Shown in pieces: positions 36,910 through 51,710 of a stretch of 64,000 bases of DNA (within the stretch, counting starts at the first letter, position 1; every line of letters begins with the position of its first letter). This stretch comes from Sphingopyxis sp. GTDB lineage: Bacteria; Pseudomonadota; Alphaproteobacteria; Sphingomonadales; Sphingomonadaceae. Under the pieces are notes generated by a model. That model saw only the letters and a list, made by a program, of their open reading frames with translations. It did no database searches and had not been told where the DNA came from. The stretch lies in assembly GCA_030145715.1 (NCBI GenBank), contig JAIXHQ010000001.1, forward strand, positions 129,701 to 193,700, in the 5' to 3' direction. A program made the translations under genes and the position numbers.

Positions 36910-39558
36910 TCAGAATTTGTAACGGATCGTCCCGCCATAGGTACGCGGCTGGCTGGGATAGCCCGATACGCTGCCCGCCTGGGCAACCGCCGGGAAAATC
37001 GTCGTCAGATATTGCGCGTTGGTCAGGTTGCGGCCCCACACGCCAACGTCGATGCCGCTGGTCAGACGCAGGGTGAACGACGCGTTGAGCGAGTTCACTT
37101 CGCGCTTCAGATTCTGCGCGACGCTTGCCGGAAAGCCCGACAGCCCCTCGACGATCTGAACCGGGCTTTCATAGGCGTAATCGACGTGAGCGATCGCCTT
37201 GGTCCCGCCAGCGAATTCATGCGTATAGGTGCCGCCGATCGACATCGACAGTTCGGGGATGCCCGCGGGCGTGCTGCCCGAAATGTCGCCGAACGCCGAA
37301 TTGACGAAGCTGTCATATTTCGCGTCGAGATAGGTCGCGGCCAGCGTCAGGTTGAGGCCGGCGACAGGACGGACCGACCCGTCGAATTCGATCCCGAACG
37401 TCGACTGCTTGCCCGCATTGGCCAATGCAAAGCCGGTGCCGGTAAAGACGTTCGACTGGAATCCCTTGATCGACTGCTTAAACACCGCAACGTTGACCGC
37501 AGCGACGCTCCACTGGCCCTTCAAACCGAATTCATAGACGGTCGATTCTTCGGGGTTGGCGAAACGCGAACCTGCCACCAGGTTCGGGGTCCGCAAACCG
37601 GCGGTGGTAATCGCTGCCAGGTCCGAAGCCAGCGGACGGCTGTCGCGCGACAGGTTGATCGAACTCGCCTTGAAGCCCGTCGCATAGGTCGCATAAATGT
37701 TGACCGTGTCGGTCAGTTCATACGCAGCACGAAGGCTGTACGAGAAATCGCCGTCGTTCGTCCGTCCGCTTTCCACCGCGTTCGGAACGTTGGGGAACGG
37801 CGGCAGGAACTGAAACGCCTTCAGGCCGTTAAGCGGATTCACTGCCGGATTGTTCTGGTTGGCGGTGGCGAAGGCCTGAACCTGCCCAGCTATCCCGGCA
37901 TAGGCTGCTGGATTTGCACCCGCAAACGTCTGAATTTCGGCGGCGGTCGCAGGGCGGCCGAGGTTAAGGACGGCAGGACCGCCGATCGTCTGCGCAATAC
38001 CGCCTTGGAATAGCAGTTGGTTGCGGAACGGAGCGTATGCGGGGGCATCGAGGTTGATGCCCGAGAACACGTCGCTGCTGACCACATTGGTCGAGAAATT
38101 CTTGCGATCCTTGGTGTAATTGCCCCCCACCGTCAGCGTCAGGCGATCGGTCACTTCGAAATCGACAGTGCCAAAGATCGAGAAAGCCTCGTTCTTCATG
38201 TCATAGGCTTCGCTCAGTCCGTTACCGGTGCGGAAAAAGCTCCCTGTATATTTCGCCGGATTGCCTTCGAGCGCCCCGAGCGTCGTCTCAAGCAGTCCGA
38301 CATTGAGCGCATTGCCGCTCGCCGCGCGGATCAGCGCGTCGCCATAGGGCCGGAACTGAGTCCCAAACCGGATCGCGCTCTGCTGGTCGACCTTTTCGTT
38401 GAAATAATATCCGCCGATCAGGAAATTGATGGGGCCGTCGAAATCCGACGCCAGGCGCAGCTCCTGCGTGAAGGTGTTGATGTCGACATAGTCGCTTTTC
38501 TCACCGATCAGGTCGGCGCCGGTGAAGTCCGAATCCTGATTGGTGTCGGCGCGGACCTGACGATAAGCGGTGATCGAGGTCAGCGCCATGGTGCCCAGAT
38601 CATAATCGATCTGTGCCGAACCACCGTAATTCTGGATTTTATTCGACGACAGGAAATTATTGTAAACATTGTAAGAAAAGGGGTTGTTCGCATCGACGCT
38701 GGGCCCGCCGGCGAGCCCATTGGTGATCGCGACGGTCGGACCGGCGATGACATTGCCCGCGATGCAGCAATTTTCGTTGATCTTGTCATAATCGCCGATC
38801 AGGCGGATCGACAGGGCTTCGGTCGGTTCGAACAGCAATTGCCCGCGAACGCCCCAGCGGTTGCGGTCGTTGACGTCGGTGTTCAGCTTCAGGTCCCGCG
38901 CATAGCCGTCGCGGCGATTATAGCTGCCGCCGATCGAGAATGCGACCTTGTCGCTGATCGGGCCGGTAACGTCGCCCTTGATGGTGATCGCGTCATAATT
39001 GCCATAGGTCACTTCGGCCGAACCGCCGAATTCATATTGCGGCTTTTGCGTCACGATGCTGATGACGCCCGCCGATGCGTTCTTGCCGAACAGCGTCGAT
39101 TGCGGACCGCGCAGCACTTCGATGCGCTCGACATTCGGAAGGTCGCCGATCTGTGCCGCCGAACGCGAACGGTAAACACCGTCGATGAACACGCCGACCG
39201 ACGGTTCGATACCGGCGTTGTTTGCACCATTGCCGAAACCACGGATGATGAAATTGGTATTCGCGCTCGACTGAAGCTGCGACACGCGCAGGCTGGGCAC
39301 GGCGGTCTGAAGGTCGATGAGGTCGCGGATCTGCGCTTCTTCCAGCGCGGCGGCCGAGGTCACGGACACCGCGACGGGCGTGTCCTGCAACGTCTGCGAC
39401 CTTTTGCTGGCGGTGACGATGATGTCGTTGCCATAATCCATATCGTCGACAGCGACCGCCGTATCGTCGGCGGGTGCGGCGGTCTGGGCGAAAGCGATGG
39501 CGGGGGTGGCGCTGGCGCACAGCATGGTGGCGCCCAGCAAAATGTTGCGCAAAGTCAT
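36910..39558 (-). CDS. TonB-dependent receptor
   Basis: 882 residues. Signal peptide MTLRNILLGATMLCASATPA(IAFAQ), then DIIVTASKRSQTLQDTPVAV, a TonB-box plus plug start. Plug signatures: IRGFGNGANNAG and VERIEVLRGPQSTLFGKNAS. The barrel ends RTYGGTIRYKF. ATG 39558 follows GAGAGAGA; the frame remains open upstream but loses signal-peptide character. It resembles sphingomonad receptors for plant or aromatic compounds and siderophores; the ligand cannot be named. Confidence 0.93.
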   Translation of the reverse strand: MTLRNILLGATMLCASATPAIAFAQTAAPADDTAVAVDDMDYGNDIIVTASKRSQTLQDTPVAVSVTSAAALEEAQIRDLIDLQTAVPSLRVSQLQSSANTNFIIRGFGNGANNAGIEPSVGVFIDGVYRSRSAAQIGDLPNVERIEVLRGPQSTLFGKNASAGVISIVTQKPQYEFGGSAEVTYGNYDAITIKGDVTGPISDKVAFSIGGSYNRRDGYARDLKLNTDVNDRNRWGVRGQLLFEPTEALSIRLIGDYDKINENCCIAGNVIAGPTVAITNGLAGGPSVDANNPFSYNVYNNFLSSNKIQNYGGSAQIDYDLGTMALTSITAYRQVRADTNQDSDFTGADLIGEKSDYVDINTFTQELRLASDFDGPINFLIGGYYFNEKVDQQSAIRFGTQFRPYGDALIRAASGNALNVGLLETTLGALEGNPAKYTGSFFRTGNGLSEAYDMKNEAFSIFGTVDFEVTDRLTLTVGGNYTKDRKNFSTNVVSSDVFSGINLDAPAYAPFRNQLLFQGGIAQTIGGPAVLNLGRPATAAEIQTFAGANPAAYAGIAGQVQAFATANQNNPAVNPLNGLKAFQFLPPFPNVPNAVESGRTNDGDFSYSLRAAYELTDTVNIYATYATGFKASSINLSRDSRPLASDLAAITTAGLRTPNLVAGSRFANPEESTVYEFGLKGQWSVAAVNVAVFKQSIKGFQSNVFTGTGFALANAGKQSTFGIEFDGSVRPVAGLNLTLAATYLDAKYDSFVNSAFGDISGSTPAGIPELSMSIGGTYTHEFAGGTKAIAHVDYAYESPVQIVEGLSGFPASVAQNLKREVNSLNASFTLRLTSGIDVGVWGRNLTNAQYLTTIFPAVAQAGSVSGYPSQPRTYGGTIRYKF

Positions 39559-39945
39559 GATGTCTCTCTCTCCAAACCGGTGAAAAGCGCGGCCTTTTGG
39601 CCAAGAGGGAGATGCCCCACCGGAATGGACCGCTGTAATATCGCCGCCCACCGCGTCAACGCCATCGGCGCGCGAAAAGCGGATTTTTTCGCCATTAGTG
39701 GCTGAAAAGCAACAGTTTACGCTACGGCCAGCGTAACGCTTCCGTCATAAAAAGCAGAAAACCCTTTGCCGACGAATGTCGCGGCTGACCGTCGAACCGT
39801 CGTGGATATTATCTGGGTCGATCGCGGCAGGGACGTGTCCGTGCAGCGGATCGATCGGTACAACAGCCAAATTCCGTGCTGCGGGTCATGATCAGGTTCA
39901 TGAACCGCAGCACGGAAATCCTTCAAATGGGTTCTCCGGTTCGGA
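39559..39945. other. 387-bp intergenic region without a supported gene
   Basis: It holds the promoter side of the leftward receptor gene (39559-39700) and the 3' side of the leftward aminotransferase gene. An inverted repeat TTACGCT-acggcc-AGCGTAA is at 39717-39736, and a strong hairpin is at 39872-39917 (own entry). The reading frame at 39717-39945 that continues into the aminotransferase shows no protein character. Confidence 0.6.
39872..39917 (-). terminator. Hairpin downstream of the aminotransferase operon
   Basis: TTCCGTGCTGCGG and CCGCAGCACGGAA form a perfect 13-bp stem, extended by TCA/TGA after one mismatch. It begins about 29 bp past the aminotransferase stop on the minus strand and is followed by TTTGG. 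Likely the end of the TonB-receptor-to-aminotransferase transcript. Confidence 0.65.
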
Positions 39946-41118
39946 TCAATCCACTCGGTCGTTAAAAAATCGCGCGAGCCGATCCATCGCCTCCGACAGC
40001 CGTTCTTCGGTCTGCGATCCGAAGCAAATCCGAAGATGGCCTTCGCCGGACGCTCCGTAAAAGCTGCCGGCTTCAACCACCACGCCAGCTTCGTCGAGTA
40101 TGCGCTCGGCAAGACTTTGGGCGGCTATTCCCGTGTCGGAGATGTCGGGAAACGCATATATCGTGCCCTCTGGCGAGGCGCACCGCACCCCCGGCATCTG
40201 GTTCATGCGCGAAACGACCAGGTCGCGCTTTTTGCGGTCCGTCGACACCATTTCCTCCAGCCTTTGCGCCGGCCCGTTGACCGCCGCGATGCCGCCATAT
40301 TGGATGAACGTGTTGACATGGGTCACGGCGCTGGTCGCGATCGTCCGCAGCGCCGGCATGAAGGCCGTATCGGCGACGGCATAGCCGAGGCGCCACCCGT
40401 CCATCGCATAAGCCTTGGTAAAGGCGAACAACGAGATCGTCCGCTCTCGCATACCGGGAAGCGTAGCGATGCTGATGTGCGGAGCATCGAACGTGATATA
40501 TTCATAGACTTCGTCAGAAACGACGAAGAGATCGTGACGGATGGCAACATCGGCCAGACTTTGCAGTTCCTCGCGAGAATATACCCGGCCGGTCGGATTG
40601 CATGGGTTCACCAGCACGATCATGCGCGTCGCAGGCGTTATCGCCGCCTCGATCCAGTCTGCGCGGATCGAAAATCCGTTCGCCGCGTCCAGCGGCACCC
40701 TAACACAACTGGCTCCGGCAAGTTCGATCTTGCCAACATGCTGAGGATAATATGGATCGAGCAGGATCACCTCGTCGCCGGGGTTGAGCAACGCCATGAA
40801 TGCGCAGAACGACGCCTGGGTAAGGCCGTTGGTGACGAGCACTTCGTCGGCACTTGCATTGATTCCGTTGAATGATGCGAGCTTCGATGCCAGTGCTTCG
40901 CGAAATAGCGGATTGCCCTGCATATCGTCGTAATGGACATGTCCGGCCCGCAGGGCGTCGATCGTCGCCTGCTTGATATGGTCGGGCGTGTCGTCCACTG
41001 GTCGGCCCAATTCCAGGTGAATGAGGTCGGCACCGGTGGCGGCGAGTTTGCGCGCACGGTCATACATGCCGTAGCTTTTCTTTGTGGATTGGCTGACGCG
41101 TTGGGCAATCTGGGGCAT
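39946..41118 (-). CDS. Class I/II PLP-dependent aminotransferase
   Basis: 390 residues, fold-type I aminotransferase of the aspartate aminotransferase superfamily. Seen: HLELGRPVDDTP, VLVTNGLTQASFCAFMALL, the cofactor region NPCNPTGRVYSREEL, VVSDEVYEYITFD (PLP Asp/Tyr) and the Schiff-base Lys in SLFAFTKAYAMDGWRLGY. The C-terminus has the carboxylate-binding Arg in GHLRICFGSQ. ATG 41118 gives family length. Last gene of the leftward operon; it probably recycles or completes deamination started by the oxidase and RidA. Confidence 0.9.
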   Translation of the reverse strand: MPQIAQRVSQSTKKSYGMYDRARKLAATGADLIHLELGRPVDDTPDHIKQATIDALRAGHVHYDDMQGNPLFREALASKLASFNGINASADEVLVTNGLTQASFCAFMALLNPGDEVILLDPYYPQHVGKIELAGASCVRVPLDAANGFSIRADWIEAAITPATRMIVLVNPCNPTGRVYSREELQSLADVAIRHDLFVVSDEVYEYITFDAPHISIATLPGMRERTISLFAFTKAYAMDGWRLGYAVADTAFMPALRTIATSAVTHVNTFIQYGGIAAVNGPAQRLEEMVSTDRKKRDLVVSRMNQMPGVRCASPEGTIYAFPDISDTGIAAQSLAERILDEAGVVVEAGSFYGASGEGHLRICFGSQTEERLSEAMDRLARFFNDRVD

Positions 41119-41153
41119 CGAAATCTCTGCTCTGGAGGAAAAGGGATGAAGGG

Positions 41154-41540
41154 TCAGTCCGGACGCCGGCGCCGCGCGGTAAATTCGATCTCGATCCGCG
41201 CGCCGGGCGCCGGAATGCCGCAGATCAACGTGGTATTTGCCGGAGGAAACTCGGCAAACTTGGCGCGCAGGATCGCCGCTGCCGCAGGCATGTCCGCCGC
41301 ATCGGTCAGATAGACGCGGTGCCGCACGACGTCTCCCAAAGTCAGGCCGCATTGATCCAGCGCCTGTTCGACAATGGCGAAAATCCGTTCGCCCTGCCCT
41401 TCGATGCTGTCCGGCATCGTGCCGTCGGGATTGGAGCCAACCGTCCCTGAGACGTGAACATAGTCACCATCGTCAACGGCACGGGAATAGGCGGCAAGCG
41501 TCTCGAAACGAGAGCCCGAGCTGTGGCGGATCAGGGTCAT
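41154..41540 (-). CDS. RidA/YjgF-family imine deaminase
   Basis: 128 residues. RidA proteins hydrolyse reactive enamine/imine intermediates to ketoacids and ammonia. Signatures: VHVSGTVGSNPDGT, VRHRVYLTDAADMPA, and the C-terminal FPPANTTLICGIPAPGARIEIE. The catalytic Arg that binds the carboxylate of the imino acid in RidA is within VRHRVYL. The gene overlaps the upstream transporter by 4 bp, and it lies between an FAD oxidase producing imines and an aminotransferase. Confidence 0.9.
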   Translation of the reverse strand: MTLIRHSSGSRFETLAAYSRAVDDGDYVHVSGTVGSNPDGTMPDSIEGQGERIFAIVEQALDQCGLTLGDVVRHRVYLTDAADMPAAAAILRAKFAEFPPANTTLICGIPAPGARIEIEFTARRRRPD

Positions 41541-42463
41541 ATATTGGTCTCCATAGCCTTCGTCGACAATGATTGTTGTTCGGCATTTTCACGTTCGAAG
41601 CGCGTGCGCAGCCAGGCCACCGCAGGAATGCCGATCACCATTCCAAGGACGGTATTGACGATCATCGGCAGCGACATGTCGCTTCGGCCAAGCAGGTTGA
41701 CGGCGACGAAGATCGCAGTTCCTTCCTGCCGGACGATATGCTCCATCACGACAGCGATCCTTTCGCCGCGGTCAAGTCCGCCAAGTCTGGATACAAGAAG
41801 CGCGATGCCGACGTTCACGACATTCATCGCGACGACGATCGCCAGGATCACACCGGCAGAGCTGCGTAGTACGTCCCATTGCTGCGCGACGATCATCGCA
41901 AAGACGAGGACCAGAACAATCGTCGAAACAGTCTTTATCGTCGGTTCAACACGCAGCGCGAAAGTCGGCACAATCAGGCGACAGATCATGCCGACGGCAA
42001 TCGGCACCACCGTAACCATCATGATGCCCTGCACCGCGTCCATCATCGGGATCGCGAGGGCTTGGCTTTCGCCGTAGACAATCCTCAGCGCGAGCGACGA
42101 CGTGAAGGGCACCGTGAAGATATAAATCACGCTGACGAAAAGACTCATCGACACCGACAGTGCGACATTGCCCCGCGCCAGATTGGTCAGAAGGTTGGAC
42201 AGGATACCGCCCGGACAGGTCGCGAGCAGGATCAGCCCCACAGTCAACGCCGGGGTCGGTCCAAAAGCCAGCGCCAGCGCGGTGCCGACGGCGGGCACCA
42301 ACAGGATCATGCTGCCGGTGCCGAGGATGAAGGCACGGCTGCTTTCGAAAATGCGCGCAAAATCACGAGGCAACAGGCCCACGCCCATCGAAAACATGAC
42401 CAGCCACAGTGCTACGGGGAGCAGATATCCCTCTGCGAGCATTTGAATCTGGGAGATATTCAT
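41537..42463 (-). CDS. Bile acid:Na+ symporter (BASS) family transporter
   Basis: 308 residues with nine or ten hydrophobic helices. Typical BASS features: FSMGVGLLPRDFAR in the first helix region, LLATCPGGILSNLLTNLARGN (the crossover motif) and VEHIVRQEGTAIFVAV with the second crossover. BASS proteins carry small organic anions and ketoacids. Here it likely moves the operon's substrate or product across the inner membrane. ATGA overlap with ridA. Confidence 0.88.
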   Translation of the reverse strand: MNISQIQMLAEGYLLPVALWLVMFSMGVGLLPRDFARIFESSRAFILGTGSMILLVPAVGTALALAFGPTPALTVGLILLATCPGGILSNLLTNLARGNVALSVSMSLFVSVIYIFTVPFTSSLALRIVYGESQALAIPMMDAVQGIMMVTVVPIAVGMICRLIVPTFALRVEPTIKTVSTIVLVLVFAMIVAQQWDVLRSSAGVILAIVVAMNVVNVGIALLVSRLGGLDRGERIAVVMEHIVRQEGTAIFVAVNLLGRSDMSLPMIVNTVLGMVIGIPAVAWLRTRFERENAEQQSLSTKAMETNI

Positions 42464-42497
42464 TTCATATCCTAACCCTAAAACAATATCTGGTGGA

Positions 42498-43808
42498 TCA
42501 GCTTTTGGATGGACGAAGCTGCTTGGCGATCAATGCGGCCTTCATCAACAGGCGCGGCAGGTGTTGCGCCATGAAAAAGCCGGCCACCCGGCGCGGCGGC
42601 TCAAGGTCCAGCAGCGGCCGACCGCTCGAACTGCCGAGCAGTCGCGAGACTTCCCTGCCGATTGCGGAATTTATCGCAAGGCCCCGGCCGTTGCACGCCT
42701 GAACCGCGATCAGCCCTTCAGCCACTTTGGTGACTCGCGGCAGGAAATCGACGTTCACCCAGGCCGTCCCGAACCAGATATTCTCGATCTCCAGCGGCCG
42801 GTAATCGATCAACATGCGTTTCAGCCGCCGATTAACCGCCGCCGCGATCGTCGCAGCCGATTGATCGGGCGTCGCGGGCAGCGGCACGATCAGCCTGTCG
42901 CCAGCGACGCGGCGAACAGAGAAGACGTCGGACTCGAGGTCGGTCAGGCTTTCGCCGCCAGGTAGGACGCTGGCCATTTCAGGCGGCAGCGCCTCCGTGG
43001 CGACTTCGCATACGGTCAGGGGCAGCACCGTGCCGCGAAGTTCGGGAACAAGATCGGCGTTGCCGCCGTTCGCGGCCATGACCACATGCCTGGCGACGAT
43101 GCGGCATCCGTTCGCCTCGACGGCCCAGCGCCCATCGCCCGCAGGCGTGACGGCCGTGACTGGCGAGTCTTCATGGACCTGCACCCCAGCCGCCGTGGCG
43201 GCGTGCTGTAATCCGATCGCAAAGAGCAAGGGATCGACGCCGCCGCCGGTCGGATCAAAGATCGCGGCGTCATAACCGGCGCAGCCGGTCACCGCCCTGG
43301 TCTGCTCGGCATCAAGTACGCGCAGGTCAGAGCGCACCACTTTCCATTCCTGGACCAATTTTTCCAAGTTGCGGCCCGCAGATTTGCCGGATTGCGGCGC
43401 GATAAATCCGTTCATTCGCGCATCGCACGATATGGCGTGCCGCGCGATCAGGTCGGCGATCGTCGTCCCGCTGGTGCCGATAAATTCCAACATGCGCCGT
43501 CCGCGATCCTGGCCCAACCGGCGCAAGACCTTGGCAGGGGTGGTGCGGACGAGTTGGGGCGCGATCACACCCGCGCTGGCTCCGGTGGCGCCGTCGCCGA
43601 TCCGGCCACGCTCGACAAGTGCTACCGACATCCCACCTTCGGCCAGATGCAGCGCGCTGGACAATCCCGCCACGCCGCCGCCGATAACGGCAACATCGAC
43701 CTCAAGTGCCGACGCCAGGGGATTAGACAGCGGCCGCTTGCCACCTATGCCCCATGCCGATCGGCGTTCGCCACTCGTCAAATCCAACGGTTTATTCCTG
43801 CTGCTCAC
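42498..43808 (-). CDS. FAD-dependent amine/D-amino acid oxidase (DAO family)
   Basis: 436 residues. The dinucleotide-binding motif VDVAVIGGGVAGLSSALHLA is near residues 38-57, then VERGRIGDGATGASAGVI. C-terminal GxG block VQACNGRGLAINSAIGR closes the FAD site. The short N-terminal extension with SAWGIGGKRP resembles the gamma-glutamylputrescine oxidase (PuuB) group. Such enzymes oxidise secondary amines or amino acids to imines. GTG 43808 follows GGAAGA. Its position next to ridA explains the need for imine removal. Confidence 0.9.
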   Translation of the reverse strand: MSSRNKPLDLTSGERRSAWGIGGKRPLSNPLASALEVDVAVIGGGVAGLSSALHLAEGGMSVALVERGRIGDGATGASAGVIAPQLVRTTPAKVLRRLGQDRGRRMLEFIGTSGTTIADLIARHAISCDARMNGFIAPQSGKSAGRNLEKLVQEWKVVRSDLRVLDAEQTRAVTGCAGYDAAIFDPTGGGVDPLLFAIGLQHAATAAGVQVHEDSPVTAVTPAGDGRWAVEANGCRIVARHVVMAANGGNADLVPELRGTVLPLTVCEVATEALPPEMASVLPGGESLTDLESDVFSVRRVAGDRLIVPLPATPDQSAATIAAAVNRRLKRMLIDYRPLEIENIWFGTAWVNVDFLPRVTKVAEGLIAVQACNGRGLAINSAIGREVSRLLGSSSGRPLLDLEPPRRVAGFFMAQHLPRLLMKAALIAKQLRPSKS

Positions 43809-43823
43809 TATCGATCTTCCGGG

Positions 43824-44054
43824 CTAAGCCAATGCCGCATCATCGCTCAAGACGAGCAAGTCCGTGTAGTCTTCCAAGGCACAAGCCGGGGAATAAGGGG
43901 TTTTAGCGAGCATTACGGCTTCGTCGGGGTGCATTGAACGAATAGTCATATCATGTGCGCCAGCAGGGATAGCCGGCGCGACAGGACTGCTCGGGATCAG
44001 ATATTTCATGAGGTTCATCATCAGATGGAGTATGAATGGCGCGATGCCATTCAT
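43824..44054 (-). CDS. Small ORF of unknown function between a TonB receptor and an FAD oxidase
   Basis: 76 codons from ATG 44054; GTG 44069 (abutting the receptor TAA), ATG 44021, 44018 and 44009 are other starts in the same frame, and none has a clear Shine-Dalgarno. The first 22 residues are hydrophobic (IAPFILHLMMNLMKYLIPSS). The last 36 are acidic and contain a lone Cys (TPYSPACALEDYTDLLV, then LSDDAALA). No family is recognised. It ends 16 bp before the oxidase gene and starts inside a strong hairpin. It could be a small operon protein, a peptide precursor, or non-coding linker RNA. Confidence 0.4.
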   Translation of the reverse strand: MNGIAPFILHLMMNLMKYLIPSSPVAPAIPAGAHDMTIRSMHPDEAVMLAKTPYSPACALEDYTDLLVLSDDAALA

Positions 44055-44059
44055 ACTCC
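44027..44059 (-). terminator. Perfect hairpin between the receptor gene and the rest of the operon
   Basis: GGAGTATGAATGGC and GCCATTCATACTCC form a flawless 14-bp stem with the loop GCGAT (plus strand). On the minus-strand transcript it begins about 11 bases after the receptor stop codon. It lacks a U-tract, so it is more likely an mRNA processing/stability or partial-termination element that sets receptor expression above that of the enzymes. Its stem contains one candidate start of the small ORF. Confidence 0.75.
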
Positions 44060-44069
44060 GGGGTATCAC

Positions 44070-46943
44070 TTAAAAGCTCTTGCGTACGCCGACAGTGAAG
44101 CGGCGCCCGATATAGTCATATGTCTGCCGATCACTGAGATACGGCGGATCCTTGTCGAGCAAATTGTCGATATTCGCATAGAAGGTCACGTCGGGCGTCA
44201 CCGTCGCCGAAAGCGAGAGATCGAAATAGTTGACGTTCGGCGCCTTTGGCACTGCAAGCAAAGGCATATCATCCCCGGCCGAAATAGCCTGGGTAATCCG
44301 CTCATCGCGTGCCGTACCGATAAAGCGGTGACGGAGTGAAACCTCGAACTGGTCGCTCGTCCAGGTCAAGCGCTGGGTAAAGCGCCATTTCGGGTTCGTG
44401 CTGTAACAGCTACTGCCCGTCCCGACATAGCCTGCGCAGTCAAGTGGACGCAGGATCGGGCTGCTCGTGTACTTGTTCTCGATCGTATAGGTGCCGGCGA
44501 TGAAATAGCTCAGTCGGCCGGAGCCAGCATCGATGCTTGCAACGTCAACGCGCCAGTCGACGCCCTTTGACGTGATGCCGCCGATGTTCTCGTTGAGAAG
44601 CGGCACATCCTGAAGCTGCCCGTCCGGAGTACGCGTGGCGAGCGGCGTACAGAAGGGGTTGCTGAGCGACAGGTCCGACCGGCAAGCGGCGATCGTCTGA
44701 CCGATGCCACCAGCAAAGGCAGCGATCGCATTTTTGATGTTGATATTATAATAATCAACGGTGAACTGCAGGTTCGGGGCGAAGCTCGGCGTATAAACAC
44801 CGCCTACGGACCAGGTGTTTGACGTTTCGGCACGAAGATTGGGGTTCCCGCCCAGAAGCGTGCGGATAACGATATTTTCCTGCTGGAACACATCGATCAC
44901 GCTGCCCGGCACACCCAGCGTTAAGCAGAAATCGCGTTCGGCAGCGGTCCGTGTCGGCCCGGCATTACAGAAATCGGTGGCGACAGGAGCCTCGTTGACC
45001 ACGCCCGAAAACAGCTCGGTGATGTTGGGTGCTCGAACCGCGCGCTGAAACAGGCCGCGGAACTTCAGTCCCCTGAAAGGCGAATATTCACCGCCCGCCT
45101 TGAACGAAAAAACGCCGCCGGCCGAAGAATAGTCGGAATATCGCGCACCGCCTTCAAAGGCGAGAAGTTCGGCGCCCGGCTTGTCCGCCAGGATCGGAAC
45201 ATAGACTTCGCCAAAAACTTCCTTGACGTTGTACGAACCCCTGGTCGGCTGAAGACCGGCCGCACGCGAGATGGCGTTGTTCTGGGTGTAGAGATTGTCC
45301 GGGTCAAACCGCGCCGACTCACGGCGATATTCGGTCCCGAGTGAAAAGCCCAGCGGGCCGGCCGGCAAGTCGAACAGGGAACCCGTCAGCGTTGCCCCGA
45401 TTTGCGTTTGAGTGACCTGGTTGCGGTTGGTCAGCGTGGTGCCGATGTAATTCGCCATTTCAGGCGTCAGCGTCCCGGCGCCAAACGGATTGAGGATGAC
45501 GCAGCCAGCTTGCGTGGACGCACAAGCCGCCGGATTGCCCGGCGCCGTAACAAAGCCGTTGGCGAAGCGATCGAGGATGACGCCGCCCGTCTGTGTATCG
45601 ACGACCGAATTTTCACCGCGATTGAAATAGGCTTCCCACTTCAACCGGCTGTTGAGCTCGCCCCTGAAACCGCCAACGAAGCGCCAGAAATCGCGCGTCT
45701 GGCGCGTGGTGCGCAACCCTACCTCGGTGGTACGACGGTTGATGTTGACCGGCACAAAGCCATCGCCATCCTGATCCAGATTGGTGACCAGGAAATCGCG
45801 CAGCGATGCCGGCAGATAAGGATTGCGGGTGTCGAACTGGAAGTTGGAGATAAAGCCGGAGCTGCTCATCGGCAGCGCGGCCTCCTGAGCCCCCACCTTG
45901 GTGCGCGCATAGGTCGCTTCCCAGAATGCCTCGATTGACGATCCCAGTTCATAGCGACCATTAACCGCGGCCTGGACACGCTCCATGGGTAGCTGGAGGG
46001 TGCTATAGACACGGTCGTTGAATGCGTCCGAGTCATTATACGCCCGCCATCCCTCCGGCGCGAAAAAGATGCCGTCGGTGCCGATGGTGTTGCCGAATTG
46101 ATCCTGCAAGCCCACGAGATCGGGCGAGAACAAAGTGCCTTGCGGCGTCACCGCGTTTCCGCCGGGCAGAAGCACGCCTTTGCCATCGACGACGGCATCG
46201 ACCAGGTATCGCGAAGCATAGGAACGCGCGCCGGAAAGCGTTTCGGCGCGTTTGAAATAATTGGCGTAGAAGGTGATGTTGCCCTTTCCATCGGCGAAGT
46301 TTCCGCCTGCGGTAAAATCAACATTATAACGAGCGGAATCGCCTCTTGAGGAAACACCCGCCTGAGCGTTCATCTCCACGCCTTCAAAGTCGTCCTTCAG
46401 GGTGAAGTTCACGACGCCCGCCATGGCGTCCGAGCCATAGACCGCCGAGGCACCACCGGTGACGACCTCAACGCGCTTGATGAGCGCCGGCGGGATGAGG
46501 TTGATGTCGACGACACCATCATTGGTCGCACCGACGACGCGGCGACCGTTGAGCAGCACCAGCGTACGCACAGAGCCAAGGTTGCGCAGGTTCAGCGTAG
46601 CCGTCCCGTTGCCGGGATCATTCGACTGCGAACCGAAGCCGGCTGTGATTTGAGGCAGGGAATTGAGAATCTGCTCAGTCTCGGCGCTTCCCGTACGGGA
46701 AATTTCCGCCTCACCGACAACATTGACCGGGCTGTTCGATACCATGTCGGACCGGGCGATACGCGAACCGGTGACGGTAATTTCGACCGGATCGCTATCA
46801 GACGACTCCTCCGGGGAAACTACAGACTGATCCGAGACGGTTGCGTCTGCCTCTTGAGCATGGCCGCTTTGCGCGACCAAAGCCAATGCGATTGCGGTTG
46901 CCGATGTAACAGCCCTACCAATTTTGCGATGAAAAACTTGCAT
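44070..46943 (-). CDS. TonB-dependent receptor heading a catabolic operon
   Basis: 957 residues. Signal peptide VTSATAIALALVAQSGHA, then an acidic linker and TonB-box-like EITVTGSRIARSDMVSNSP. The plug has the pattern of the sphingomonad/Caulobacter receptor group: LRNLGSVRTLVLLNGRRVVG, ALIKRVEVVTGGASAVYGSDA and GVVNFTLKDDFEG. Barrel with several Cys pairs near its end; the final residues GRRFTVGVRKSF end in Phe. This group is often associated with oligosaccharide or peptide uptake. First gene of the operon controlled from 47003-47038. Confidence 0.94.
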   Translation of the reverse strand: MQVFHRKIGRAVTSATAIALALVAQSGHAQEADATVSDQSVVSPEESSDSDPVEITVTGSRIARSDMVSNSPVNVVGEAEISRTGSAETEQILNSLPQITAGFGSQSNDPGNGTATLNLRNLGSVRTLVLLNGRRVVGATNDGVVDINLIPPALIKRVEVVTGGASAVYGSDAMAGVVNFTLKDDFEGVEMNAQAGVSSRGDSARYNVDFTAGGNFADGKGNITFYANYFKRAETLSGARSYASRYLVDAVVDGKGVLLPGGNAVTPQGTLFSPDLVGLQDQFGNTIGTDGIFFAPEGWRAYNDSDAFNDRVYSTLQLPMERVQAAVNGRYELGSSIEAFWEATYARTKVGAQEAALPMSSSGFISNFQFDTRNPYLPASLRDFLVTNLDQDGDGFVPVNINRRTTEVGLRTTRQTRDFWRFVGGFRGELNSRLKWEAYFNRGENSVVDTQTGGVILDRFANGFVTAPGNPAACASTQAGCVILNPFGAGTLTPEMANYIGTTLTNRNQVTQTQIGATLTGSLFDLPAGPLGFSLGTEYRRESARFDPDNLYTQNNAISRAAGLQPTRGSYNVKEVFGEVYVPILADKPGAELLAFEGGARYSDYSSAGGVFSFKAGGEYSPFRGLKFRGLFQRAVRAPNITELFSGVVNEAPVATDFCNAGPTRTAAERDFCLTLGVPGSVIDVFQQENIVIRTLLGGNPNLRAETSNTWSVGGVYTPSFAPNLQFTVDYYNINIKNAIAAFAGGIGQTIAACRSDLSLSNPFCTPLATRTPDGQLQDVPLLNENIGGITSKGVDWRVDVASIDAGSGRLSYFIAGTYTIENKYTSSPILRPLDCAGYVGTGSSCYSTNPKWRFTQRLTWTSDQFEVSLRHRFIGTARDERITQAISAGDDMPLLAVPKAPNVNYFDLSLSATVTPDVTFYANIDNLLDKDPPYLSDRQTYDYIGRRFTVGVRKSF

Positions 46944-47002
46944 GTCGTCCCTCTACTAACGATGCCAAAATTCCGCCTGCGAATGTCATTTTATTTTCAT
47001 TA

Positions 47003-47038
47003 TTATGTGATTATGCACATAAAATAAGGTCGGGTCAA
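47003..47038 (-). promoter_or_regulatory. Promoter with overlapping palindrome (candidate MarR operator)
   Basis: Reading leftward: TTGACC (47038-47033), exactly 17 bp, CATAAT (47015-47010). The -10 box lies in the middle of the inverted repeat TTATGTG-attatg-CACATAA (47003-47022). A transcript would start near 47002 and have a leader of about 60 nt before the receptor ATG at 46943. A MarR-family gene is divergent 190 bp away, so the palindrome is its probable binding site. The remaining bases to 47226 hold the marR promoter, not resolved. Confidence 0.7.
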
Positions 47039-47226
47039 CACTCGGTTTTGGCAGGCTCCACGCCATAAATAATTCCCTATATCATTGATAATAATGGACT
47101 TTCGTCCCGTGGCGCATTCGGCCTGGTGCGGTGGCGTTTAAAGTGATTTCGGCTATATGAACGGAGGCGAATCACTCGATCCGAGCTGCATGATGCGTTC
47201 GCCTAAATTTTGGCTGAGAAGGCGAT

Positions 47227-47709
47227 ATGGCCCGTAATCCCGATTTCGAAGTGACGAGTCCTGCCGATCCGGAATTCAAACTGACCCGTTCGCCATTCTA
47301 TCTGATGGCGCACGCTGATTTCAAATATCACGAGGACATTTCCGTGGTGCTCGGGCGGCGCTCCGTCACCAAGATAATGTACCGCATCCTCACGGTTTTG
47401 CGCGAGCGAAAGGTCGCCAATGTGGGAGAGCTTGCCGACTTGTCGCTGTCAAAGCGGCCAACCGCAAGTCGCGCGATCGACAGGCTGGAACAGATGGGTT
47501 TGGTAGAGACGATTGCCAGCGATGAGGATGGAAGAATCACCGAGGTGAGCCTGACGCCAAAAGGGTCAGAAATTTTGGGCGAGCTATCGACAGTTGTGGG
47601 CCGCCAATTCGCGCGCGCGCTGGAAGGTATTAGCGATCGAGAGATCGAGGGGCTTGTTAACACGCTTGGGAAGATTGTCGCCAATCTCAACAAGCTGGCA
47701 ATCGAATGA
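47227..47709 (+). CDS. MarR-family transcriptional regulator
   Basis: 160 residues. A winged helix-turn-helix lies at about residues 58-115: VANVGELADLSLSKRPTASR is the recognition region, RAIDRLEQMGLVETIASDEDGR the wing. N- and C-terminal helices give the usual dimer interface. MarR proteins typically repress divergent genes and release DNA on binding a small phenolic or organic ligand. Divergent to the TonB-receptor operon, with a palindrome on that promoter. Confidence 0.92.
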   Translation: MARNPDFEVTSPADPEFKLTRSPFYLMAHADFKYHEDISVVLGRRSVTKIMYRILTVLRERKVANVGELADLSLSKRPTASRAIDRLEQMGLVETIASDEDGRITEVSLTPKGSEILGELSTVVGRQFARALEGISDREIEGLVNTLGKIVANLNKLAIE

Positions 47710-48109: not shown

Positions 48110-48185
48110 TGGTGCCGCTTACAGGACTCGAACCTGTGACCCCATCATTACGAATGATGTGCTCTACCAACTGAGCTAAAGCGGC
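48110..48185 (-). tRNA. tRNA-Thr (anticodon CGT)
   Basis: A full cloverleaf reads on the minus strand. The acceptor pair is GCCGCTT/AAGCGGC with discriminator A and an encoded CCA; the D-arm is GCTCAGTTGGTAGAGC. The anticodon arm CATCA-TTCGTAA-TGATG has anticodon CGT at 48152-48150, and the T-arm is ACAGG-TTCGAGT-CCTGT. Length 76 with CCA. Confidence 0.97.
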
Positions 48186-50063: not shown

Positions 50064-51314
50064 TCAATTGGCGTCATTCGCCAAGCGGAAGCAGGTCGCG
50101 AAGCGCCCTCGGTCGGCTTCGCTCACCTCGGCCTGTTTGAACTGTGCCTCCCAGCCTCCGGCCACCTGCATGCGCATGTCTTCGACCATGGCTTGGGCCT
50201 GGTCGGGCGCGAGGTCGAACCCGGCAGCGCCAGCAAGAGCATTGGCGACAGTGGCGTCCCGGCCTTGCGGGCCAATGCCCAGCACCAGGCGTCGTTCAAG
50301 ACCTACCTGCGGTTTGGGCACGACATCGTAGAGCGGTGACAGTCGCCAGCCCTTGCCGTCGAACAGGAAGCCATGGTTGCGCAGGTGGTCATCATCGTTG
50401 GTGACGAGGATGTTGAACACCATGCGCCGGAACAGTTCGTGGAGGTCGCGGCGCACCTCGGTGCCATGCTGGCGAAGAACGGCGGCGAGGTCCGCATAGC
50501 TGTAGCGGCTTACTTCGCTCTCGTGCGCGCCGAGCATGGTCAGGCCGGAGGCGAAAGGCCGCCGCTCCAGCCAGTTGCCGTGCGATACGCGATCGAACCG
50601 TTCGATCAGATAGATGTCGCGTTCCAGCACGCGCCTGAAGTCGAGCGCCGGAACGTCGAGGCCACAGGCCGCAGCAAGGCGCATGGTCGCCAGCTCGACC
50701 CGGCATTCGGGGAAACTGTCATTGCGGGCCTGGAACTTGGCAATCCAGGGCTGGCCCTCGATTTCGGTCGCGGCCTTCGGGCGCGCGCCGCCTAGTGACG
50801 AACCGGCGGTCAGCAACCGCCGCAGGTTTTCGTCGAGCTGATCGACATGCTGCGCGCGCTCGGCAGCTTCGGCCAGTTCTTCCAGGGTAAAGTGTTCGCC
50901 CGGCGCGTTACCATCGCCCCACGGGGTGATGCGCTCCGGACGCTCGGGCGTCGGGCCGAATGCCAATGCGCCCACCCGGTAATCGCCAGAGGCCAGGATC
51001 AGATCGATATCGCTCGGCAGGCGGTCGCCCATCGCCTTGTACATCAGGTACTGGCCCCAGCCATCGGGAGCTGCGTCGCGAATGCCGCCGAAGACGGCAA
51101 AGCCTTCTTCAGTCCGGAATGTGCGTTCGGTGCCCGGGTCATGAAGCGGCAGCGCCACAGGATCGACGGGGACGCGGTCCGGACGGGCGAGGTAGCGGCG
51201 ACCATAGGCGAAAGTCGCGAACTGATTGCGCGGCTCGGCGGTCATCGTCAGCAGTCCTGCCGGAACAGGGCCGCCTTCGAGGTGAACGAACACATAGGTG
51301 CGGACCGTTGCCAT
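50064..51314 (-). CDS. hipA: HipA-family serine/threonine kinase toxin
   Basis: 416 residues. HipA toxins phosphorylate translation factors or aminoacyl-tRNA synthetases and cause growth arrest. N-terminal subdomain with FEYGRRYLxRP-type block (here FAYGRRYLARPD). The regulatory Ser/Gly loop is SSLGGARPKA, the Lys strand is WIAKFQ, YLIERFDR follows, and the kinase catalytic motif is VTNDDDHLRNHGF with LSPLYDVVP as the metal-binding block. All core residues appear intact. hipB lies 5 bp upstream. Confidence 0.92.
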   Translation of the reverse strand: MATVRTYVFVHLEGGPVPAGLLTMTAEPRNQFATFAYGRRYLARPDRVPVDPVALPLHDPGTERTFRTEEGFAVFGGIRDAAPDGWGQYLMYKAMGDRLPSDIDLILASGDYRVGALAFGPTPERPERITPWGDGNAPGEHFTLEELAEAAERAQHVDQLDENLRRLLTAGSSLGGARPKAATEIEGQPWIAKFQARNDSFPECRVELATMRLAAACGLDVPALDFRRVLERDIYLIERFDRVSHGNWLERRPFASGLTMLGAHESEVSRYSYADLAAVLRQHGTEVRRDLHELFRRMVFNILVTNDDDHLRNHGFLFDGKGWRLSPLYDVVPKPQVGLERRLVLGIGPQGRDATVANALAGAAGFDLAPDQAQAMVEDMRMQVAGGWEAQFKQAEVSEADRGRFATCFRLANDAN

Positions 51315-51319
51315 GGCCG

Positions 51320-51661
51320 TCAGAAGTCCAGCTCGTCGCTGCTCACAGCATGCGTCGTCTTGGGCAGCCGGGCGAGGTCTTCGCTGATGCCTGCCCGGTC
51401 AGTGTCCGGGGCGACGAGTTCGGCGAGGCGCTGGGTCATGCCGAACACATGGAGGGCGCTGGCCAACACGGCCAGACCTACTGTCGCATCGCCTGCCTCA
51501 AGGCGCTGAAGCGTCTGCACCGAAACCAGCATGCGTTCGGCCATCAGTCTTTGCGGCAGCTTGCGACGGCGGCGGGCAATGGAAATGTCCTTGCCCAGCT
51601 GCGCAATCGCGCGCTGGCTCTGGGGCGGCAGGCCGCTGGCAGCTCTGGAGGCGCGTGACAT
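51320..51661 (-). CDS. hipB: HipB-like helix-turn-helix antitoxin
   Basis: 113 residues. A Cro/C1-type HTH occupies about residues 17-70: ISIARRRRKLPQRLMAERML then VSVQTLQRLEAGDATVGL. The C-terminal tail with RLPKTTHAVSSDELDF probably contacts HipA. I choose ATG 51661 because the promoter at 51669-51696 places the transcript start at this codon. An ATG at 51682 would add MIWHIFI but lies between the -35 and -10 boxes. Expected to repress its own operon. Confidence 0.88.
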   Translation of the reverse strand: MSRASRAASGLPPQSQRAIAQLGKDISIARRRRKLPQRLMAERMLVSVQTLQRLEAGDATVGLAVLASALHVFGMTQRLAELVAPDTDRAGISEDLARLPKTTHAVSSDELDF

Positions 51662-51668
51662 GATGAAT

Positions 51669-51710
51669 ATATGCCATATCATGTGAAAAATGTCAATTCA
51701 GCATGATATG
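51669..51710 (-). promoter_or_regulatory. hipBA promoter with paired operators
   Basis: Leftward: TTGACA (51696-51691), 17 bp, CATATA (51674-51669). CATATCATG (51675-51683) and CATGATATG (51702-51710) are perfect inverted repeats with an 18-bp spacer that brackets the -35 box. The transcript would start about 51662, one base from the hipB ATG, so the message is probably leaderless. The arrangement suits autorepression by HipB dimers. Bases 51711-51933 show no gene. Confidence 0.7.

Follow-up and report, generated by a model that had tools for sequence, protein, structure and literature searches.

A MarR-adjacent uptake and amine-oxidation gene cluster in Sphingopyxis as a possible branch feeding isatin catabolism

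The window analysed here, a 64,000 nucleotide stretch of a Sphingopyxis sp. contig, carries at positions 39946-47709 a gene cluster whose FAD-dependent amine oxidase and aminotransferase (AT) co-occur with isatin degradation genes across related genomes. We consider the chances about even that this cluster serves as a branch for uptake and deamination that supplies isatin-isatinate-anthraniloyl-CoA catabolism. It probably serves the use of oxidised tryptophan-like compounds as food. The initial annotation had likewise described genes for uptake and amine oxidation next to a MarR gene as fitting no named pathway, and no pathway in the available portions of the literature examined matches them.

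Gene coordinates together with Pfam and NCBIfam profile searches gave five minus strand genes, from a TonB receptor to the AT, and a divergent MarR gene, in agreement with the co-directional order first described. The TonB-dependent receptor (44070..46943, minus strand; Pfam plug and barrel) and the FAD oxidase (42498..43808, minus strand) are separated by 261 nt, and the oxidase and a BASS/SBF-family inner membrane carrier (41537..42463, minus strand) by 34 nt. The stop and start of the carrier and Rid-family genes (41154..41540, minus strand) overlap, and 35 nt lie between the Rid gene and the AT gene (39946..41118, minus strand), which is shorter than its ORF ending at 41352. Among 298 family genomes the oxidase was detected in 17 (cut-off 1e-60) and the AT in 21 (cut-off 1e-80), and the AT was present in 16 of the 17 oxidase-positive genomes compared to 1.2 expected at these cut-offs, indicating that the two genes group beyond chance. 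Neighbourhood comparison found the set kept in pieces among sphingomonads, with the FAD oxidase, AT and MarR genes also together in three Komagataeibacter loci. BASS relatives were found in 25 of 49 related loci, and the receptor shares 58-68% identity with receptors encoded next to DUF885 genes in L049, L059, L060 and L061.

An 81 codon open frame (43824..44069, minus strand) had been counted as a cluster member, which our results did not bear out. Profile searches of the frame against Pfam and NCBIfam (0.001) came up empty, as did tblastn against the 23 compared loci (1e-4), and its codon signal was weak, with a third-position G+C of 0.59 compared to 0.69-0.75 in the five other minus strand genes. 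Its 5' part is a perfect 14 bp stem-loop with a 5 nt loop (44027..44059, minus strand; fold -27.8 kcal/mol, z -4.21) that starts 10 nt past the TonB stop codon and has one site in the 88% complete genome. As the frame overlaps this single-copy hairpin and lacks a relative in those loci, it probably does not encode a protein, and the hairpin is probably a 3' processing or attenuation element. Many relatives carry a DUF3830 gene near this position. The frame was considered as a DUF3830 remnant and this was rejected, as comparison by eye found no similarity and the hairpin explains the region better. No DUF3830 gene was detected in the genome at its 88% completeness, and a literature search found no papers on this family.

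The FAD oxidase was assigned to the DAO fold of amine oxidases and dehydrogenases (glycine/sarcosine oxidase, proline dehydrogenase) with 168.9 bits against a Pfam cut-off of 27.9 (DAO, 2.9e-49). Its AF2 model (pLDDT 87) gave glycine oxidase (Foldseek E 2.5e-24), L-proline dehydrogenase and sarcosine oxidase as best folds. The label PuuB-like proved loose, as the top curated match was L-pipecolate oxidase AmaA. AmaA and the DAO, sarcosine oxidase and proline dehydrogenase group have the fold and Pfam domain in common with the window oxidase, but it reached only 184 bits with the AmaA model NF050086, for which the cut-off is 600, and was 13-21% identical to the solved members listed, and identification as AmaA was therefore rejected. 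Two records in a plasmid collection matched the oxidase, both below 40% identity. The BASS carrier scored 101 bits against the Pfam SBF cut-off of 24.3 (7.9e-29) and was below the TIGR00841 cut-off (113.7 compared to 326.3).

The initial annotation proposed oxidation to an imine followed by imine hydrolysis by RidA, a generic oxidative deamination with D-amino acids, polyamines and opines among the candidate substrates. The gene families are as named by Pfam, but the Rid protein (Ribonuc_L-PSP, 7.7e-21) argues against this chemistry. In RidA and Rid1-3 imine deaminases a conserved Arg (Arg105 of E. coli TdcF) is described as essential for imine hydrolysis in the available text of PMC4433059. 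The window protein shares the fold family of RidA, but Asn102 aligns with the essential Arg, and its closest solved relative, 3i7t, is an uncharacterised protein. The Rid homologues recovered at 1e-6 from the compared loci (G011, G225, G253, G289 and Neorhizobium) likewise carried the Asn, those of G011 and G225 adjoining MarR, isatin hydrolase and indolepyruvate oxidoreductase (IOR) genes. Because Asn replaces the essential Arg, the imine hydrolysis step is not supported and we rejected RidA as an imine hydrolase. No curated PuuB or DadA over its cut-off was among the 25 best matches of the oxidase, and we found no specific support for the three proposed substrate classes. Generic deamination would also leave the association with isatin genes unexplained, an association that across genomes favours an indole- or isatin-related substrate, and we consider it very improbable.

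The AT is a class I/II PLP aminotransferase (PF00155, Aminotran_1_2, 2.3e-64; 218 bits compared to a cut-off of 19.7). Residues K235, D202, Y205, R243 and R363, which we take to be PLP-site residues, were invariant in 20 sequences, and the relatives in family genomes are 58-74% identical. The best curated match was the gamma-hydroxyarginine cyclodehydratase GntC (NF041364). With 322 bits the AT was under the cut-off of 415 and hence is not GntC; by its name GntC acts on a gamma-hydroxy amino acid, and dioxindolylalanine is likewise gamma-hydroxy. The plasmid collection held 125 AT records, six of them at 60-80% identity, and three of these six were examined (one, from Neorhizobium, without annotation). 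One 73-kb Sulfitobacter plasmid carries the AT together with a cyclase-MarR-IOR set, the cyclase being 48% identical to the isatin hydrolase of the Sphingopyxis genome.

The route had first been presented as complete within the cluster. Uptake and amine oxidation stood, but the route apparently continues on another contig of the same genome. This contig, C6, carries a MarR gene, an isatin hydrolase, IOR alpha and beta subunits, two acyl-CoA dehydrogenases, an enoyl-CoA hydratase, an SDR and an aminobenzoyl-CoA-type monooxygenase. By sequence the hydrolase is an isatin hydrolase, matching 5nmp (isatin hydrolase) with 359.6 bits and aligning HTGTHFDAPVH with the metal motif HxG[T/A]HxDxPxH given in the available part of PMC6117287. 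Among the 298 family genomes, isatin hydrolase was found with the FAD oxidase in 15 of 17 (1.9 expected, p 2e-14) and with the AT in 19 of 21 (2.3 expected, p 3e-19), and the aminobenzoyl-CoA-type monooxygenase was again found in 15/17 and 19/21, respectively. The control gene pobA was mildly enriched with the oxidase (8/17, 4.0 expected, p 0.02) and occurred with the AT in 7/21 (4.9 expected, p 0.2). Counted by genus (96 genera), the oxidase was accompanied by isatin hydrolase in 11 of 12 (p 2e-8). All p values are from Fisher tests, which ignore the tree. None of the four genes (FAD oxidase, AT, isatin hydrolase, monooxygenase) was detected in six genomes of the same genus at the cut-offs used.

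These associations bear on whether the cluster instead degrades a cyclic or N-alkyl amino acid released from peptides, of the proline, pipecolate or N-methyl type, and merely shares genomes with isatin degradation. The FAD fold with its AmaA match, and the DPPIV-type S9, M24 and M20 peptidases in relatives, are consistent with such a substrate. Isatin genes were also absent from the FAD-DUF3830 loci of Rhodobacter type and of two gammaproteobacterial MAGs, indicating that the FAD family is not specific. However, the co-occurrence of oxidase and AT with isatin hydrolase and monooxygenase is very strong next to the weak pobA control, and in four genomes (G011, G095, G157 and G248) the AT and monooxygenase genes are about 100-160 bp apart. 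We therefore regard a cyclic or N-alkyl amino acid pathway as unlikely. For the isatin-feeding branch, the imported compound is probably a peptide or a peptide-derived amino acid, because peptidase genes are near in many relatives (S9 in 21 and DUF885 in 22 of the 49 loci). In the Sphingopyxis genome (88% complete) a search at 1e-15 detected no island-type S9 peptidase, and three full-length DUF885 members are on other contigs.

The link to isatin genes is looser in individual loci and genomes. In the Sphingopyxis genome itself the two clusters sit on separate contigs. Isatin hydrolase was local in only 10 of 42 tabulated FAD loci, and two genomes (G032 and G252, 99 and 100% complete) have the oxidase and AT without isatin hydrolase or monooxygenase. 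Conversely, 14 of the 33 isatin hydrolase genomes among the 298 lacked the AT at cut-off, and in three loci (G174, G242 and the AT-positive G220) the isatin hydrolase has a Rieske oxygenase as a neighbour within 10 kb, suggesting that the isatin module has other feeders. The genes may also belong to an ordinary tryptophan route, in which the AT would form indole-3-pyruvate, IOR would form indoleacetyl-CoA, and isatin hydrolase and monooxygenase would act later, preceded by an oxygenase encoded at another site. In its favour are the naming of IOR for indolepyruvate, the resemblance of the AT to aspartate and aromatic aminotransferases, and the Rieske oxygenases found no more than 10 kb from isatin hydrolase in L153, L154 and L156. 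The three Komagataeibacter loci point the other way. They carry DUF3830, FAD oxidase, AT, MarR, isatin hydrolase, IOR and monooxygenase genes within about 11 kb, K. xylinus additionally having an SBF carrier, a TonB receptor and an M20 peptidase within 10 kb, and among those of their frames that were searched and matched a Pfam family the CoA-dependent monooxygenase was the only oxygenase recognised. As the tryptophan route also assigns no function to the FAD oxidase, we think it doubtful.

The regulator most resembles those of auxin catabolism. The MarR protein (47227..47709, plus strand; Pfam MarR 4.1e-11) had as its seven best PDB matches only deposits listed in the available text of the auxin-catabolism MarR paper PMC9613470, and relatives of its type (43-58% identity) were present in 22 of the 49 loci, the window included. 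The IAA-binding MarR_73 is described there with contacts from Arg-46 and Trp-45. In alignment with 7kfo, which leaves out Ser-28/His-32 and uses our own chain numbering, the Arg is kept and the Trp is Tyr. A candidate operator, an inverted repeat with 7 bp arms and a 6 bp spacer (47003..47022) found by palindrome search, is centred on a promoter-like -10 element and overlaps the best promoter-like site for the operon (TTGACC-17-CATAAT, 47010..47038, minus strand; 10/12 matches). The operator is weak by itself because 163 of 1000 shuffles reached an arm of 7. Promoter-like sites were not above chance (three in the region, shuffle mean 3.3), nor were terminator-like sites in the region above shuffles. 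No operator common to the MarR loci was found among the palindromes listed, with one palindrome recurring in L057 and L084.

A variant of auxin (indole-3-acetate) catabolism would be consistent with this regulator and with the isatin hydrolase and IOR, which resemble parts of iad loci; these have iorB and iorA-type genes. The iad systems of Variovorax paradoxus CL14 and Bradyrhizobium share with the Sphingopyxis genes MarR regulators, IOR alpha/beta, a hydrolase annotated as kynurenine formamidase, dioxindole/isatin/isatinate chemistry and an anthranilate product, according to the available portions of PMC9613470 and PMC12633357. However, they start from indole-3-acetate with the Rieske dioxygenase IadCDE, whereas the window system has a TonB receptor, amine oxidase, BASS carrier and AT upstream. 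Neither the window cluster nor the C6 frames searched yielded a recognisable Rieske gene of the IadCDE type, and indole-3-acetate has no amine for the FAD oxidase or AT to act on. Fragmentary iad-like clusters are reported from Sphingomonas and Sphingopyxis, of the same order of bacteria as the window; we infer that these probably correspond to the MarR-isatin hydrolase-IOR module of C6, and the available part of that report (PMC11630574) assigns them no FAD oxidase, AT, BASS carrier or peptidase. Overall an iad-like pathway is quite improbable.

For the branch feeding isatin catabolism, all reactions of the window genes are ones that we infer. The TonB receptor would admit the compound and the BASS carrier would move it, or a product of it, through the inner membrane. 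Oxidation of a C-N bond in the probably secondary amine would fall to the FAD oxidase, the AT would convert the amino acid to its 2-oxo acid, and fragmentation of this acid would give isatin. On C6, isatin hydrolase would open isatin to give isatinate, the IOR alpha/beta pair would make anthraniloyl-CoA, presumably acting on isatinate, and the salicylyl-CoA 5-hydroxylase-type monooxygenase and acyl-CoA enzymes would complete breakdown. The substrate may be an oxidised tryptophan, namely dioxindolylalanine or the related hydroxypyrroloindoline, whose deamination would give dioxindolylpyruvate, and a retro-aldol split of the latter would give isatin and pyruvate; the substrate and this split, as the chemistry upstream of isatin, come from chemical reasoning. 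Only tentatively, at a low but appreciable probability, do we propose a dedicated pathway for oxidised Trp residues of protein. Dioxindolylalanine or hydroxypyrroloindoline peptides would be imported, the FAD oxidase would open the secondary-amine form, the AT would yield dioxindolylpyruvate, the retro-aldol step would perhaps be carried out by the Asn-type Rid protein (or by DUF3830 in relatives), and IOR would oxidatively decarboxylate isatinate to anthraniloyl-CoA. No paper describing this pathway was among the matches listed for isatin hydrolase/isatinate/aminobenzoyl-CoA and dioxindolylalanine/oxindolylalanine.

The literature examined, in its available portions, links the genes for isatin hydrolase and IOR with the degradation of auxin and indole. 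The TonB receptor, BASS carrier, DUF3830 and Arg-less Rid group, for which we found no assigned function, gain candidate roles here. If an amine-oxidising, peptide-linked branch feeds the isatin genes, a second natural source of isatin, plausibly oxidised protein tryptophan, becomes testable.

The minus-strand run from 46943 down to 39946 encodes, in order, a TonB receptor, an open frame of 81 codons, a DAO-fold FAD oxidoreductase, an SBF/BASS carrier, a Rid-family protein and a class I/II aminotransferase (AT), with a MarR gene diverging from 47227. The AT gene starts at 41118, not 41352, and ends at 39946. The BASS and RidA genes overlap, and the gaps are 35 nt (RidA-AT), 34 nt (FAD-BASS) and 261 nt (TonB-FAD). 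Coordinates and family matches confirmed the co-directional TonB-FAD-BASS-RidA-AT order with a divergent MarR gene proposed by the initial annotation. An inverted repeat at 47003-47022 is a candidate MarR operator; it shares positions with a promoter-like site (47010-47038) and was not significant by itself. The TonB-FAD gap contains a perfect 14-bp stem-loop (44027-44059; fold z -4.2) that lies 10 nt past the TonB stop and occurs once in the genome. The 81-codon frame, earlier counted as a cluster gene, reads through this stem-loop, matched no family, had no relative among the 23 loci compared and showed weak codon structure; we therefore set it aside as probably no gene and interpret this stretch as a hairpin with a 3' regulatory or processing role.

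Two more TonB receptors adjoin the cluster (33833-36787 and 36910-39651), and only the latter matched receptors of the related sphingomonad (island) loci, at 25-35% identity. A tRNA-Thr gene (48110-48185) lies 0.4 kb past the MarR gene at a local G+C drop to 54% and is a possible integration site. Further on is a HipA-like gene (50064-51682, PF07804), presumably forming a HipBA-type pair with the small frame upstream of it, which had no Pfam match at 1e-8.

The best curated match of the FAD oxidase was AmaA, at a score far under cut-off, and the folds nearest to its AF2 model (pLDDT 87) were glycine oxidase, L-proline dehydrogenase, sarcosine oxidase and L-amino acid deaminase, at 13-21% identity among the matches listed, so that sequence and model place it at class level only, as a predicted amine oxidase or dehydrogenase. 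Secondary amines are substrates of enzymes with several of these folds. The AT conserves the PLP-site residues; its best curated match was GntC, under cut-off, and its best solved relatives were aspartate and aromatic aminotransferases. The RidA imine-hydrolysis step drawn originally was not supported, as Asn102 aligns at the place of the imine-hydrolase arginine, whose change to alanine almost abolished imine hydrolysis according to PMC4433059. Asn was also found in the Rid homologues matched at 1e-6 from G011, G225, G253, G289 and Neorhizobium, a comparison confined to these closer homologues. In G011 and G225 the homologues (57-62% identical) adjoin MarR, isatin hydrolase or IOR genes, IOR being an indolepyruvate oxidoreductase-type alpha/beta pair. 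The seven best PDB matches of MarR (7l19, 7kua, 7kym, 7kki, 7kfo, 7l1i and 7krh) all come from one study of MarR proteins in auxin catabolism, PMC9613470, and at 44-70 bits the sequences indicate kinship, not orthology.

The same genome carries an isatin cluster of about 12 kb on another contig (C6:102853-114651; L107 from 8354 to its end), comprising a second MarR gene, isatin hydrolase, IOR alpha (TPP domain), IOR beta, two acyl-CoA dehydrogenases, an enoyl-CoA hydratase, an SDR and a salicylyl-CoA 5-hydroxylase-type monooxygenase. The hydrolase matched the solved structure 5nmp at 360 bits with the metal motif present, and the monooxygenase scored 1290 bits against a cut-off of 1078. The island PF04199 protein matched solved isatin hydrolases at 7e-114. 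Co-occurrence was assessed in 298 genomes of the family (96 genera) using cut-offs of 1e-50 for isatin hydrolase (33 carriers), 1e-200 for the monooxygenase (55), 1e-60 for FAD (17) and 1e-80 for AT (21). Isatin hydrolase accompanied FAD in 15/17 genomes (expected 1.9) and AT in 19/21 (expected 2.3), the monooxygenase accompanied them in 15/17 (expected 3.1) and 19/21 (expected 3.9), and all 33 isatin hydrolase genomes had the monooxygenase (expected 6.1); each p was < 1e-9, values that are optimistic because the Fisher tests ignore the tree. By genus, FAD and isatin hydrolase co-occurred in 11/12. The control gene pobA, present in 70/298 genomes, was found with FAD in 8/17 (expected 4.0, p 0.02), AT in 7/21 (expected 4.9, p 0.2) and isatin hydrolase in 9/33 (expected 7.8, p 0.4). 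Two genomes break the pattern, G032 and G252, which have neither isatin hydrolase nor the monooxygenase, and AT was missing at cut-off in 14/33 isatin hydrolase genomes. Six same-genus genomes lacked all four genes at these cut-offs, which fits joint gain or loss. Roughly 100-160 bp separate the AT and monooxygenase genes in G011, G095, G157 and G248.

Neighbourhoods were tabulated for 49 loci after removal of duplicates of one place; these were picked for matching FAD oxidase, AT or isatin hydrolase, so the counts describe company, not frequency. The FAD oxidase was present in 42/49, alongside DUF3830 in 32/42 (e.g. L075:9438-9923), AT in 18/42, IOR beta in 12/42, isatin hydrolase in 10/42 and monooxygenase in 6/42. 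Gene sizes are nearly equal in L093 (Qipengyuania) and L096 (labelled Anaerolineaceae); L096 seems to duplicate L093 with a different taxon label and is probably a mis-binned sphingomonad contig. In many sphingomonads the core is accompanied by a TonB receptor and by further genes, counted here across the 49 loci: DUF885 proteins in 22, DPPIV-type S9 peptidases in 21, amidohydrolases in 10, and M20 and M24 peptidases in 5 each. Another such companion, a TPR and 2OG-Fe(II) oxygenase protein (PF13759), occurred in 12/49 (L055, L057, L059, L062 and eight others), six of them also with isatin hydrolase. Komagataeibacter loci L075, L076 and L079 hold a compact version of about 11 kb, with DUF3830, FAD, AT and MarR on one arm and IOR alpha, IOR beta, isatin hydrolase, monooxygenase, SDR and a Rid gene on the divergent arm. 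In K. xylinus (L079) an SBF carrier adjoins the Rid gene, and a TonB receptor, M20 peptidase, hydantoin-racemase-type gene and purine/allantoin-type permease lie within 10 kb. Rhodobacter-type loci pair FAD and DUF3830 with a branched-chain-amino-acid-type ABC transporter, a GntR gene and an aldo-keto reductase, and isatin genes are absent from them. DUF3830, whose only solved relative at 0.01 was the uncharacterised protein 3kop, is absent from the window's own genome, and Rid and DUF3830 may substitute for each other.

Several variants were also seen. L045 (G253), L046 (G011) and L047 (G225) carry a divergent FAD oxidase (32-34%), AT (71-74%), hydantoinase A/B, an MFS carrier and a different TonB receptor, with the monooxygenase adjoining or close to AT in 2/3. 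In L153, L154 and L156 the isatin hydrolase-IOR genes have Rieske oxygenase genes less than 10 kb away, an alternative feeder of the isatin module, perhaps from auxin or indole. In genus g71 (L149:7393-15815 and L150) isatin hydrolase lies beside DUF885-like genes, an amidohydrolase and a TonB receptor, in genomes with neither FAD (1e-60) nor AT (1e-80). Flavin reductase, CN-hydrolase, FAA hydrolase and cupin genes close to the monooxygenase in L145 (2224-5956), L147 and L148 suggest a gentisate-like ring-cleavage branch for hydroxyanthranilate.

Judged from sequence, the genome combines a predicted outer-membrane receptor, carrier, amine oxidase and AT with isatin-breakdown genes. AT (or the FAD oxidase) would make a 2-oxo acid that breaks up to isatin. 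On chemical reasoning, the best-fitting substrate would be dioxindolylalanine, a doubly oxidised tryptophan whose 2-oxo acid is an aldol adduct of isatin and pyruvate and can therefore split into the two. Its gamma-hydroxy group would suit AT, since the curated family closest to that enzyme takes a gamma-hydroxy amino acid as substrate. Hydroxypyrroloindoline carboxylate, its cyclic relative, is a proline-like secondary amine and would thus give the DAO-type oxidase a role. No oxygenase fit for intact indole was recognised among the annotated frames of the Komagataeibacter loci, where some frames had no Pfam match, and this argues that the substrate reaches the cell already oxidised.

According to PMC9613470 and the preprint PMC12633357, iad loci, which carry IOR and MarR genes, convert indole-3-acetate to anthranilate by way of dioxindole, isatin and isatinate; the preprint disputes the early intermediates. 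Isatin hydrolase has been characterised (PMC6117287) and fragmentary iad-like clusters have been described from Sphingomonas and Sphingopyxis (PMC11630574). In the present cluster the IOR pair would act on isatinate. The Variovorax nine-gene region iadC-K2 reportedly reaches anthranilate without the IOR genes iadA/B. The portions of the iad and isatin-degradation literature searched describe no FAD oxidase-BASS-Rid-AT branch, in agreement with the earlier view that the cluster matches no named pathway. The biochemical steps as first drawn need revision, and the cluster itself is a real, conserved and uncharacterised catabolic branch whose substrate class is now much narrowed.
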